Positions 1 through 62,148 of a DNA stretch of 64,000 nt are shown here, piece by piece. The stretch spans positions 1 to 64,000 of the forward strand of contig NZ_LCTF01000009.1 of NCBI RefSeq assembly GCF_001663375.1, given 5' to 3'. Source of the DNA: Caldivirga sp. MU80 (GTDB taxonomy: Archaea > Thermoproteota > Thermoprotei > Thermoproteales > Thermocladiaceae). The notes under the pieces were generated by a model that had not been told where the DNA came from, searched no databases, and was given only the letters and a program-made list of their open reading frames with translations. The stretch's first letter is position 1; every line of letters starts with the position of its first letter. A program made the translations under genes and the position numbers.

Positions 1-2
1 CT

Positions 3-725
3 GTTAGGTTTAATGGGTCGATTAGTAGGGTTGTTATAAAGCCCACTGTGTCGAGGAGTTACAGGGAATTGCTCAATGCTGTTCTTTTTGAACGTGTCAA
101 GTACATGGGTAGGGTTGTGGTTAGGGATTACGGTGTTAGGGGTAGTCAACTGTGGGTTCATGGTGAGATTCAAGTGACAGTGCCAATGGATGTTTATTAT
201 GAGCACATGACTAGGCATAAGAAAAACAGTGGCAAGCTCATTGGTGGTGTTGACGTTAACTCGGATAGAATCAACCTAGCAATCATTGATGAGGAGGGTG
301 AGCTTAGGGACACCCACACCTTCTGGTTCAGTGAGGTGACTGCACGAGGCTTTCCCATGCACAAGGCTTGGGGCATTATTGGCATGAGGATTCACGAATT
401 ACTTGATTACGCTTACCGCCATGGCGTTAAGACCTTGTTCCTAGAGAATCCGGAGGTTCTCGGTAGGCTGAGGCTAATGTGGATTAGGAGTGGTGATAGA
501 AATCATGAGAATTACAATCACAAGGTCTCAATATTCAGGAGCTCAATCATTGAGAAAATAGCCATGAAGGCACCACTATACAGCATAGAAACCAAGTACG
601 TAAACCCAAAGGGAACAACAAACTCAACAAAACACGACGAACTAATGAGAAAGCATGGGCTGGACAGGCACACAGCATCAGCCTACTCAATAGCCCTAAG
701 AGGACTCACTCACCAACAAAAATAA
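3..725 (+). CDS. TnpB-related IS200/IS605 accessory protein, 5' end cut by window
   Basis: This is the C-terminal part of a TnpB-type RuvC-like nuclease. The frame is open to the left window edge, so the true start lies outside; the GTG at 48 is only internal. Three RuvC blocks are visible: an Asp in GVDVNSDRINLAIID (RuvC-I), a Glu in LFLENPEVLG (RuvC-II) and an Asp in GLDRHTASAYSIALR (RuvC-III). Unlike canonical TnpB there is no CxxC zinc ribbon between blocks II and III, which is typical of the TnpB-related class of archaea. No tnpA is visible. The stop is followed after about 10 bases by a short sequence (735-756) that recurs at one end of two dispersed repeats in this window, so it is probably the element terminus. 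Family assignment is firm; activity is unknown. Confidence 0.8.
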   Translation, partial: VRFNGSISRVVIKPTVSRSYRELLNAVLFERVKYMGRVVVRDYGVRGSQLWVHGEIQVTVPMDVYYEHMTRHKKNSGKLIGGVDVNSDRINLAIIDEEGELRDTHTFWFSEVTARGFPMHKAWGIIGMRIHELLDYAYRHGVKTLFLENPEVLGRLRLMWIRSGDRNHENYNHKVSIFRSSIIEKIAMKAPLYSIETKYVNPKGTTNSTKHDELMRKHGLDRHTASAYSIALRGLTHQQK

Positions 726-734
726 ACACCACAA

Positions 735-756
735 CCACGAAAACCAAAACAGCCCC
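735..756 (+). repeat. putative right terminus of the TnpB-related element
   Basis: This 22-base sequence ends in GCCCC. It matches 7969-7990 at 18 of 22 positions, and those bases match 53739-53760 at 16 of 22. In all three places it sits at the edge of a mobile-looking segment, here just after the TnpB-related stop codon. Reading it as an element end is inference. Confidence 0.5.
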
Positions 757-6407: not shown

Positions 6408-7749
6408 GCTGATCATATCCTCGTATAAGGGTAAGTCAGGCAAAACAATAGCAACCCTGGCCATAGCCAACGCCCTAATTAGGGCAGGCTTCACGGTCTC
6501 CATGTTTAAGGTGGGGCCGGATTACATAGACCCAAGCCTACATGGCTTAATCACCGGCTCACCAAGTAGGAACCTGGACTACGTACTAATGGGTAGTGGG
6601 GTCCTTGAGAGACTCTACAGATACTCCATGGGCAGTGACATAGCCCTAATAGAGGGTGTGGCTGGGCTATACGACAGCATTGACGGTTTCAGTGAACTTG
6701 GCAGTACGGCTCAGTTGGCTAAGTTAATCAAGGCACCAGTGCTGCTAGTCATTAATGGTGAGAGGATTAACAGAACGGCCAGGGCCATCATCAGGGGGTT
6801 GAGGCAATTCGACCCAGAGGTTAAGATAATGGGCGTCGTGTTGACTAATGTTCCCCCGAGGCAGGTGGATAAGTTAACTAGGATCGTCGAGGAGGAGGGG
6901 TTACCGGTGGTTGGTGCTATACCGAGGAGTGAGGATATTGAGGAGTCATTTAGCTATAGGCACCTTGGCTTAAGGCATGCCAAGGAGGTTGCCAGGCAAC
7001 AGCTCATTAGTATCGTGGACTCTGCATCAACAGGCATAAACACAGACATAATTGTGAAGATGGCCAGGGAGTACTCCGAGCCCATAAAGCTTAATGGCCA
7101 GCTGGAGGTTGAGGTGCCCATTGTAAGGGGGAGGCCCAGGATAGGTATCATTGCAGGTAAGGCCTTCACCTTCTACTACCCAGAGACCCTTGAGGAGGCC
7201 CTAACCTTAGGTGAGGTTAAGTTACTGGACCCTGAGGTGGATGGTGACGTTGGGGATGTGGACATACTCCTAATAGGTGGTGGGTTCCCTGAGGTCTATG
7301 CAAGTGGCCTTGAGGGTAATAGGGCCTTTAGGGCATCCGTGAGGAGGTTCGTGGATAAGGGTGGTTACCTCTACGCCGAGTGCGGGGGTTTAATGTACCT
7401 AGCAAGTTCAATAATATTCAACAACAGTGAGTATGAGATGGCTGGGATAATAGACGCAGTGGCTGTGATGCTGAATAGGCCCGTGGGCCATGGGTACGTG
7501 GTGGCTAGGGTGATTAAGGACACTTTAATTGCACCCAGGGGAACGGTGCTTATGGGTCATGAGTTCCACTACTCAAGGCTAATACTTAAGGGCAGCTACG
7601 ACCTGGCTTTGAAATATGAAAGGGGCTTTGGGGTTAATGGGATGGATGGATTCACAATCAACAACACCTACGCCCACTTCATGCACCTACACCCACACAC
7701 CCACGACGTACTGAGGTCAATAATACTTAACCACGTTAAGGGAGCTTAA
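6388..7749 (+). CDS. cbiA: cobyrinate a,c-diamide synthase
   Basis: CbiA is a glutamine-dependent amidotransferase that amidates the a and c side chains of cobyrinate. Residues 1-220 form the ATP-binding domain with the P-loop-like SYKGKSGKTIATLAIANAL and VGPDYIDPSLH; the C-terminal class I glutamine amidotransferase domain has LLIGGGFPEVYA, AECGGLMYL (Cys nucleophile) and the catalytic His region near HFMHLHPH. About 453 residues is normal. ATG 6388 is chosen because GGGGTGGT lies just upstream, although GTG 6379 is in frame. It overlaps the methyltransferase gene. A related enzyme, CfbB of F430 synthesis, is a less likely alternative. A dispersed repeat begins eight bases after the stop. 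Confidence 0.85.
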   Translation: MELTTPRLIISSYKGKSGKTIATLAIANALIRAGFTVSMFKVGPDYIDPSLHGLITGSPSRNLDYVLMGSGVLERLYRYSMGSDIALIEGVAGLYDSIDGFSELGSTAQLAKLIKAPVLLVINGERINRTARAIIRGLRQFDPEVKIMGVVLTNVPPRQVDKLTRIVEEEGLPVVGAIPRSEDIEESFSYRHLGLRHAKEVARQQLISIVDSASTGINTDIIVKMAREYSEPIKLNGQLEVEVPIVRGRPRIGIIAGKAFTFYYPETLEEALTLGEVKLLDPEVDGDVGDVDILLIGGGFPEVYASGLEGNRAFRASVRRFVDKGGYLYAECGGLMYLASSIIFNNSEYEMAGIIDAVAVMLNRPVGHGYVVARVIKDTLIAPRGTVLMGHEFHYSRLILKGSYDLALKYERGFGVNGMDGFTINNTYAHFMHLHPHTHDVLRSIILNHVKGA

Positions 7750-7756
7750 ACCATAG

Positions 7757-7990
7757 CCGTCTCTCTGGAGGCGGCGGAGGTGTTAAACCTCCACCGTCTC
7801 CTTCTCGACGGTCTCCCTGGGCCCCCTCACCGCAGCAGCTCCCCACCCGTCGCCGGGGGTTCCCAGCCACTACGGGTCTCGGAAACCCAGGGTAACCAGT
7901 AAGGGTTACTAGGGTTTGGTTTATAAGCAAATCGCTTCAGCACCAATAGCAACAAACCCCACGAACAATCACGAAAACCGAAATTGCCCC
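7757..7990. mobile_element. dispersed structured repeat, copy R1 (MITE-like or guide-RNA relic)
   Basis: This 234-bp element is about 80 percent alike to 53539-53760 over the first 140 bases and also related to 61883-62046. It begins CCGTCTCTCTGGAGG and ends in GCCCC like the TnpB-related element at the left window edge. It contains a 9-bp stem (7772-7780 with 7786-7794) around a GTTAA loop and a long-range CCCTGGG/CCCAGGG pairing. A TATAA sequence lies near the 3' end. No real coding potential is seen, although short frames exist. It could be a non-autonomous IS605-type element or a relic RNA gene. Confidence 0.65.
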
Positions 7991-52682: not shown

Positions 52683-53537
52683 ATGAAGGTTCCACGCGTT
52701 AGGACATACATACCTGGGTTGGATGAGATACTATACGGCGGTATACCAGACAGGAACATTGTACTTGTTTCCGGCGGTCCAGGTACAGGTAAGTCGATCA
52801 TGGGTAAGCAGTTCCTCTACAACGGCTTAACCAGGGGTGATGCAGGGGTTTTCGTCGCCCTCGAGGAGCACCCAGTGGCCGCTAGGAGGAGTTTCAGGCA
52901 TTTTGGTTGGGATGTGGATAAGTTCGAGAGGGAGGGTAAGTTGGCCATAATTGACGCTTTCACGGCTGGTGTTGGCGCTGCTGCCCAGAGGGAGAAATAC
53001 GTGGTTAAGGATGTTGACAATGTGCATGAACTCGTCGATGTTCTTAGGCAGGCTATTAAAGATACCGACGCCAGGAGGATAGTCATCGACTCGGTGAGCA
53101 CCCTGTACCTAACCAAGCCGGCGACCGCCAGGTCAGTGGTGATGATGCTTAAGAGGGTTATTGCAGGGCTTGGGGCAACTGCAATGTTCATTAGCCAGGT
53201 GTCCGTTGGCGAGAGGGGGTTTGGTGGGCCTGGGGTTGAGCACGCCGTGGACGGTATAATTAGGCTTGACCTGGATGAGGTTAACGGCCAACTTTACAGG
53301 TCCATAGTGGTCTGGAAGATGAGGGACAGTAAAATAAGCATGGTTAGGCACCCGATGGATATAACTGATGAGGGTATCGCAATACAGTGGGATAAGTACC
53401 TGAAGATCTCCTCAACCTCAGTTACCGTTCAACCACTACCCAAGGATGAGGTTGAGGAGATGAGGAGTGCTGTTGCGGAGGCTGAGAGGGAGGCTAAGGA
53501 GGTTAAGAGACCGAGGGTTGAGGAGGAAGAGGAGTAG
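52683..53537 (+). CDS. KaiC-like RecA-superfamily ATPase
   Basis: Archaeal single-domain KaiC-like proteins are ATPases of unclear signalling function, some regulated by phosphorylation. The protein has [18 protein letters not shown], Walker [17 protein letters not shown] near residue 31, the catalytic Glu pair FVALEEHP, Walker [14 protein letters not shown], and the region [17 protein letters not shown]. After the domain comes a C-terminal tail of about 45 residues ending in an acidic run (RPRVEEEEE). A TTTAAAATA box is about 30 bases upstream. Repeat copy R2 starts right after the stop. Confidence 0.88.
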
Positions 53538-53538
53538 C

Positions 53539-53760
53539 TGTCCCTCCGGAGGCAGCGGTTCATAAAATCCCCACCGTCTTCTTCTCGACGGTCTCCCTGG
53601 ACCCCCTCACCACAGCGGCTCCCCAACGGTCACCCGCGGCTCCCGGCCACTACGGATCTCGGGACACCAGGGTCACCAACAAGAGTGTTGAAGTTAGTCT
53701 TAAGACCCAACGCCGATGGAAATGAGCACTACAAATGACTATGAAAACTGAGACTGCCCC
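53539..53760. mobile_element. dispersed structured repeat, copy R2
   Basis: A 222-bp copy of the repeat family, closest to R1 (7757-7990). It shares the cores CCACCGTCT-CTTCTCGACGG and GTCTCCCTGG-CCCCTCACC, the long-range CCCTGG/CCAGGG pairing, and the same GCCCC-ending terminus at 53739-53760. The start includes the perfect palindrome CCTCCGGAGG. Like R1 it lies immediately downstream of a plus-strand gene, so a role at gene ends (insertion preference or 3' UTR structure) is possible. Confidence 0.65.
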
Positions 53761-61324: not shown

Positions 61325-61878
61325 ATCATCCTCATTATTAGGTCATTTATGGCGGAGCCCCTGTAGCCTAATTCACCATCGGCGTTGTATGGCTTCTTTA
61401 TGCTGCCCTTAAAGCCGCCTTTAGGTGGGTGAAGCCTGAAGTACGGCTTTAAGCCCGGTATGCAACTTGCCTTACCGTTAACCATGCCTGGCTTCTCCCC
61501 CTTCCTACACCATAGGCTCTTAACCTCACCCCTAATGTACGCGTCCACAAGCTCCTCCACGTTACCCCAGCCATACTTCTTCACGTAGTCGTCGGTCAAC
61601 GGTAAGTCACCCACCAGCCTACCCCTCCTCCTGAGTAGTTGAATCAAGGTTTCCCTACTAACCTCACCCCACGTTAACCAGCCCTCAGCCGCCTTAAGCA
61701 TACCCTTGATGGAGTCGGTCAACGGGTATACACTGCATGTGAACTTCCTCCTCAACCTAAGTAGATCTAAAGTATGCTCCACATCAGGGCTTACGTCAAC
61801 CAGCCCCCTAATCCTAACCGCAGCCACAATCACCCTACCAACCTCGCCACTTGGCTTAACCTCCTGGGTACTCTGCAT
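61321..61878 (-). CDS. rpl30: 50S ribosomal protein uL30 (L30P)
   Basis: Protein uL30 of the large subunit, archaeal/eukaryotic L7 form. The core AAVRIRGLVDVSPDVEHTLDLLRLRRKFTCSVYPLTDSIKGMLKAAEGWLTWGEV is followed by LIQLLRRRGRLVG and the C-terminal part LHPPKGGFKGSIKKPY that links to rRNA. At 185 residues it is of the long archaeal type. It is outside the usual spc-like ribosomal operon. Its only evident TATA box (TATAAA, 61904-61909 on the minus strand) lies within repeat copy R3, so the repeat seems to supply its promoter. Confidence 0.95.
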   Translation of the reverse strand: MQSTQEVKPSGEVGRVIVAAVRIRGLVDVSPDVEHTLDLLRLRRKFTCSVYPLTDSIKGMLKAAEGWLTWGEVSRETLIQLLRRRGRLVGDLPLTDDYVKKYGWGNVEELVDAYIRGEVKSLWCRKGEKPGMVNGKASCIPGLKPYFRLHPPKGGFKGSIKKPYNADGELGYRGSAINDLIMRMI

Positions 61879-61882
61879 AGTA

Positions 61883-62046
61883 CCGTCTCTCCGGAGGTGG
61901 TGGTTTATATTTCTTTACTTCCGGTGGAGGCTTGGTGCCTCCGCCGTCTCTTTCTTGGTGGTCTTCCTGGGTCTCCTCACAGTAGTGGCTCCCCAACGGT
62001 CGCTGACCTAATGACTGAGGTCTCAAACCTCTCCATGGGTGAAACC
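61883..62046. mobile_element. dispersed structured repeat, copy R3 (diverged)
   Basis: This copy shares CCGTCTCTCCGGAGG, the 9-bp hairpin (GGTGGAGGC with GCCTCCGCC), TCTCCTCAC and GTGGCTCCCCAACGGTC with R1/R2, but lacks the GCCCC terminus and has about 24 extra bases containing TTTATATTTC. Those extra bases hold the TATA box of rpl30. The closing stem pair differs from R1 (C-G instead of T-A) yet stays paired, evidence for a folded RNA or DNA hairpin. Confidence 0.55.
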
Positions 62047-62148
62047 TCTTATTTTACGAAATGGTGGTTAACATGATGTCTTTAATGTGGTGCAAGCGAG
62101 GTTTAGTAATCCACTAAGGCTTAATAAGTAGGTTATTGACGGGTTAAG

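Follow-up and report, generated by a model that had tools for sequence, protein, structure and literature searches.

What are the three gene-less, apparently structured repeats that lie dispersed in the genome of Caldivirga sp. MU80, and what moves them? We addressed this question in a stretch of 64,000 nucleotides (contig NZ_LCTF01000009.1, positions 1 to 64,000; here called the window) that contains the repeats, R1, R2 and R3. The original prediction had offered two readings of them: tnpB-less elements of the IS605 type, or a family of RNA genes, possibly relic guide RNAs of TnpB. Our data suggest that R1 to R3 are likely to be non-autonomous, guide-RNA-only derivatives of a small mobile element whose full form belongs to a divergent TnpB/OMEGA (obligate mobile element-guided activity) system.

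The repeats form one mobile family

Sequence comparison bore out the claim that R1, R2 and R3 share blocks in the same order: they are three real copies of one family. BLAST of the window's own genome (G000; 2.26 Mb, 94% complete) at E<=0.01 returned 41 places with R1 as the query and 42 with R2. The covariance-model search proposed along with the original prediction was run and found 50 RNA copies in this genome, 32 in the sister genome G004 (67% complete) and a few in other genera; the complete genus-mate G001 had zero copies by the same model.

Aligned copies have sharp ends in common (left CCGTCTCTCCGGAGG, right AAAACCGAAACAG) and unrelated flanks. As set by copy alignment and empty sites, R1 is a complete nuclease-less, or solo, element of 230 bp on the minus strand (7757..7986), and a CCCC target motif follows directly at 7987-7990. 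R2 is likewise a complete solo element on the minus strand (53538..53756, 219 bp), followed by CCCC at 53757-53760, and no base separates it from the stop codon of the gene at 52683-53537. R3 (61883..62060, minus strand) is a decayed solo element in which many pairs are broken and the right end is not recognisable.

The family is mobile. The proposed comparison with relatives was also carried out, and five insertion sites were found empty, those of R2 and R3 among them; the other three belong to G000 copies (L021, L022 and L041) and are empty at the orthologous positions in G004. When joined, the flanks of R2 match G001 and G003 straight through the junction; those of R3 do so in G001 and G002, where the empty site has CCCC and reads ATGACCCCTTGCC. 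Where a site was resolved to the base, insertion had occurred between a purine and CCC(C), and no target bases were duplicated. At 29 well-parsed right junctions, positions one to three past the element end were C in 27-28 and position four in 21. The insertions of R1 and R2 are also present in G004 and are therefore older.

Two further loci are recorded here. At G000:C81:6047-6256, two partial copies overlap in opposite orientation as an inverted pair. In addition, one insertion, alike down to its flanks, occurs both as L010 (G000:C46) and as L062 (G024:C157), in two genomes that were assigned to different genera; this may reflect a binning error or recent transfer.

A predicted structured RNA on the minus strand

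The left part of each complete repeat corresponds to a predicted RNA of ~140 nt, and the strand that folds is the minus strand, which corrects the original reading. Both pairings proposed at the outset exist: the hairpin of R1 and R3, and the CCCTGGG/CCCAGGG pairing, which proved to be the main long-range stem of the covariance model. A first folding of 47 blocks gave -46.5 on the minus strand versus -19.8 on the plus strand, and folding of the final alignment gave -52.6 kcal versus -29.9 (column shuffles: -13.3, standard deviation (sd) 3.3, and -6.6, sd 2.2, respectively). R1 alone folded at -86.3 kcal (z -6.8) on the minus strand and at -68.1 (z -4.6) on the plus strand. Its minus-strand fold is clean and has two parts: a long arm with a GCGA loop at its tip, and another long hairpin, which a stem at the element edge closes.

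Across 44 copies, 97% of the cells at paired positions were paired (37-54% in slid controls), and 14 pairs showed changes on both sides; none of 500 shuffles equalled the covariation score. One pair of the capped stem was seen as G-C, C-G, U-A, U-G and A-U. In the minus-strand reading the wobble cells were 299 G-U versus 35 A-C, a count to be read with the fact that the structure itself was chosen on this strand. The model placed the RNA of R1 at 7757..7896 on the minus strand, with its 5' end near 7896 and the 3' end of the scaffold at 7757 (match 7751-7899, E 5.2e-36), and that of R2 at 53538..53676 (match 53532-53679, minus strand, E 1.4e-29); R3 was matched over 61877-62060 on the same strand with E 1.2e-7. 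At gathering and relaxed thresholds, Rfam returned tRNAs only and no guide-RNA family.

In 36 of the 44 copies, a TATA-like box precedes the conserved 5' end of the RNA by 25-27 nt. In R1 this near-palindromic, unstranded box occupies 7919..7929 and, on the minus strand, precedes the RNA 5' end by 27 nt; none was recognisable in R2 with the pattern used. With this box and the 97% pairing, most copies do not look like relics, and that part of the original prediction did not survive; R3 alone looks like a relic.

Decay was strongly strand-biased in some copies. On the RNA strand of L191:722-858, the G004 orthologue of R1, there were 23 G>A changes versus 0 C>T, and in L029:1495-1643 there were 13 versus 1, while the whole family was balanced (165 to 141). 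Strand-specific cytosine deamination could be the cause.

Full-length copies carry a TnpB/Cas12f-like nuclease

Several copies match R1 over its first ~180 bp and resume with its last ~50 bp some 1.15 kb further on. These full-length copies are ~1.3 kb long and hold a single open reading frame (ORF) of ~360 aa between the R1-like halves; R1, R2 and R3 are without this nuclease gene. The window itself begins within such an element: positions 1..752 on the plus strand are its 3' part, comprising the C-terminal part of the nuclease gene (matched by tblastn over 6-713 with 78% identity and E 1.1e-126; stop codon 723-725) and the right end at 752, with CCCC at 753-756. Genome-wide, tblastn detected 13 nuclease segments in G000, several of them cut by contig ends, and homologues occurred in 19 of the 61 genomes searched, down to 26% identity.

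In an alignment of 22 homologues, D209, E273 and D346 were invariant and form the D-E-D triad of a C-terminal split RuvC domain. No CxxC pairs of a zinc finger occurred between RuvC II and III in these 22 proteins; a C-terminal zinc finger is present in many, not all, TnpBs (PMC10711439). Searches of Pfam, PHROGs and PDB sequences gave no match over the cut-off. Divergent members of the family matched guided_TnpB at 2.3e-7 and TIGR01765 at 2.7e-10, and a profile comparison with the canonical IS607 TnpBs of relatives gave E 4.5e-7 with RuvC I, II and III paired. An AlphaFold2 model of the nuclease (predicted local distance difference test 72, predicted template modelling score 0.45) had AsCas12f as its best PDB match (E 1.8e-8), followed by other Cas12 proteins. 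The pairwise ratio of nonsynonymous to synonymous substitution rates between nuclease copies was 0.10-0.16, and the nuclease is therefore under selection now, or was until recently. No relatives of the protein were found in the viral contigs searched, and R1 DNA had no match in the phage or plasmid collections searched. We also considered an IS110 element with a bridge RNA and rejected it, as the RuvC motifs lie in the C-terminal half in place of an N-terminal DEDD and a C-terminal serine domain; the nuclease had no IS110-type Pfam match.

The RNA accompanies the nuclease well beyond the genus. The covariance model matched 13 loci with distant nuclease homologues in other Thermoproteota (among them Desulfurococcales, Ignisphaera and Vulcanisaeta; best E 5.7e-24, weakest two 0.2-0.3), always on the strand opposite the homologue. 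Wherever the model gave a match, in full-length copies and distant loci alike, the RNA is upstream of the nuclease gene and antisense to it. Double changes were seen in 27 of 42 pairs of the distant loci, in an alignment that was fitted to the model. A TATA-like box was present at 27-29 nt in 9 of these 13 loci. The same near-palindromic box lies ~26 nt before the nuclease start codon. As a sequence arrangement, this would suit a shared TATA region from which the RNA and a leaderless nuclease mRNA are transcribed divergently.

Three features of the nuclease region stand apart. Homologues of ~30% identity have almost identical C-terminal ~45 residues (NPKGTTNS.EHDE.M...LDRHTASAYLIAL), perhaps from recombination near the shared right end. 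In a divergent clade (L148, L149, L150, L151 and L090) an ORF of ~48 aa (MPEEYVFHARISKTSHGLLCIYIPKGL...) separates the RNA block from the nuclease, and one variant of it has a weak MazE/AbrB resemblance (E 0.058). In full-length copies, the nuclease start codon is immediately preceded by a perfect palindrome whose sequence varies (GAGGGATATCCCTC, GGGGATTCCCC, GGTGATATCACC; for example at L016 1479-1493, and in L114 and L141), which is lost or halved in solo copies and is perhaps an operator.

Mobilisation

The proposal of a tnpB-less IS605-type element held, in outline, in its first half, as the long copies carry a TnpB/Cas12f-like gene that the repeats do not have. The second half failed: no match to the Y1 (IS200/IS605) transposase family PF01797 was found in G000 or G004, and we rejected mobilisation by IS605. 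Nor did the full-length copies inspected hold a tnpA, having one ORF only.

G000 does contain an IS607-type element (L245:2560-3975, at the end of G000:C71) with a MerR/resolvase serine TnpA followed by a canonical TnpB that is cut by the contig end. The left end of this resident element, GGGCTGTTTCG, is identical to the element end opposite the RNA; the exact 11-mer is absent from the window, where the copies have a variant end. Insertion of IS607 is at (G)GG and leaves no target duplication (PMC6188088), and the element studied here has (G)GG insertion, no target duplication and GG at its ends. We favour IS607 over IS605 because of the (G)GG target, the lack of target duplication and the end shared with the resident IS607. 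Judged from these sequences, the family is probably mobilised in trans by an IS607-type serine recombinase acting at a GG core.

Proposed mechanism and alternative explanations

Read on the RNA strand, an inserted copy runs from a flank ending in GGGG into CTGTTTC at the element boundary, through the RNA to GACGG at the opposite boundary, and on into the other flank. On this strand the empty site has GGGG and, right next to it, the flank that the RNA would extend into. By layout, this is the arrangement that lets TnpB recognise the site it has left: the RNA ends at one boundary, where the flank would be a 3' guide, and the motif is at the other. The second original reading, a guide RNA of TnpB, thus also holds in outline, as the repeats keep a structured RNA in the position expected of one. 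In the mechanism that we propose, the nuclease would be expressed from one strand and the ~140-nt RNA divergently from the other, ending its scaffold at the element edge and reading on into flanking DNA that would serve as the 3' guide. For R1 the putative guide, placed by position and with an assumed length of 20 nt, is CTATGGTTTAAGCTCCCTTA (7737..7756, minus strand). GGGG would act as a motif like the target-adjacent motif of TnpB, and the nuclease with its RNA would recognise a vacated or homologous empty site as GGGG plus guide. Cutting there would favour retention and spread of the element, as proposed for TnpB, and gene-less copies would be served in trans by the few nuclease copies. The sequences show the copy number, mobility, junctions, RNA structure with its strand, protein family and selection; transcription, guide function, cleavage, service in trans and the transposase are inferred.

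Four observations weigh against these interpretations. Single proteins of the near clade score below the TnpB family cut-offs (15 bits versus 32, and 11 versus 100). The plus strand, too, folds better than its shuffles, which is expected of a strongly paired sequence. An empty site that consists of motif and flank follows from any insertion at a fixed motif, so that the empty-site match fits guide use without proving it. Finally, the link to IS607 consists of one 11-nt end match and the target type.

One alternative is that R1 to R3 are ordinary deletion derivatives of the kind of miniature inverted-repeat transposable elements (MITEs), in which the folded block is no more than the end that the transposase recognises, its structure playing no part as RNA. 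Archaea commonly contain MITE-like derivatives of insertion sequences, and the gene-less copies do keep both ends and have no ORF. A multi-stem structure of ~140 nt with covariation across families is, however, more than end recognition needs, and the same is true of the strand preference with G-U tolerance, the GNRA-type loop and the promoter-like box at a fixed distance. The ends of IS607 are short repeated motifs (PMC6188088), and we consider the MITE explanation unlikely. It could also be speculated that the host has co-opted the RNA as a family of small-RNA genes that have nothing to do with the nuclease, as many copies keep the structure without the gene; this is extremely improbable given that copies come and go between close relatives, are missing from G001 and adjoin nuclease homologues in distant lineages.

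Another possibility is a layout like that of IscB, with the RNA upstream on the strand of the nuclease gene and a 5' guide taken from the left flank. IscB elements carry their RNA 5' of the nuclease ORF, the block studied here is 5' of the ORF, and the plus strand of R1 does fold. A plus-strand RNA was indeed our first idea from the 5' position, dropped after two-strand folding and the TATA spacing: the minus strand folds far better both alone and aligned, the G-U wobbles and box spacing fit it, and the protein is RuvC-only and Cas12f-like, which makes this layout very improbable. It is similarly hard to credit that the RuvC protein and RNA are themselves the transposase, picking GGGG sites without a separate recombinase. 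Such a role would suit the lack of Y1 transposases and of a tnpA noted above, as well as the lack of any resolvase match in G004, an assembly that is only 67% complete. On the other hand, G000 has the IS607-type TnpA with the matching terminal motif, the target is of the IS607 pattern, and TnpB is described as dispensable for transposition (PMC8612924; PMC6188088).

Relation to known systems

If the preferred reading of guide-RNA-only copies of a TnpB/OMEGA-type element holds, an antisense guide-RNA gene that stands on its own shows how a guide can be uncoupled from its nuclease, as was necessary for CRISPR-Cas12 to arise from TnpB. With ~40 guide-only copies, it can be tested whether mobile guide RNAs share a nuclease in trans or parasitise it. 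An RNA-guided nuclease of ~360 aa that is zinc-free, comes from a thermophile and uses a short G-rich motif would also be of practical interest. There is, in our judgement, an even chance that the family is a separate OMEGA class: a mini-TnpB without a zinc finger and with a guide RNA that is a gene in its own right, divergently promoted, detached from the nuclease and spread in dozens of guide-only elements, each directed against its own empty site and served in trans by few nuclease copies, which together would make a dispersed, genome-wide guide array. In the TnpB systems known to us, the guide RNA is encoded on the tnpB strand, within the tail of the gene or behind it. A search of the literature, of partial coverage and therefore weak as evidence, brought up no TnpB whose guide RNA is divergent or antisense.

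The MITEs of archaeal insertion sequences resemble the repeats in being short, multi-copy and gene-less with both ends of the parent element, whereas the repeats have kept a complete conserved RNA and promoter-like box and not the ends only. With IscB and its omegaRNA (ISC elements) they share an RNA 5' of the nuclease gene, but here the RNA strand is opposite to the gene, the guide would be 3' and the protein has no HNH features. Cas12f is the best fold match and also a compact protein with RuvC at its C-terminus; in contrast to it, the nuclease is shorter, has no zinc-binding cysteines and is transposon-borne, and no CRISPR array was seen with the copies inspected.

The closest likeness is to IS607-family TnpB with its right-end element RNA (reRNA) or RAGATH-18-derived RNA (PMC11061315). 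Both have a RuvC D-E-D protein of similar size, a structured RNA at the element end positioned to run into the flank as a 3' guide, a G-rich motif at the opposite end and a (G)GG target without duplication; in the published systems, AG-rich motifs adjoin the left end (PMC11061315). In contrast, the nuclease gene here is inverted, so that the RNA is upstream and antisense, the zinc finger is missing, the RNA is outside Rfam, and the copies have no tnpA and most have no nuclease. This RNA was absent from the canonical IS607 TnpB loci fetched (best E 0.36). We do not class the element as a plain TnpB because it has neither a same-strand 3' RNA nor a zinc finger and its near-clade proteins fall below the family cut-off. 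By layout and fold, it is most likely a variant of the TnpB/OMEGA kind.
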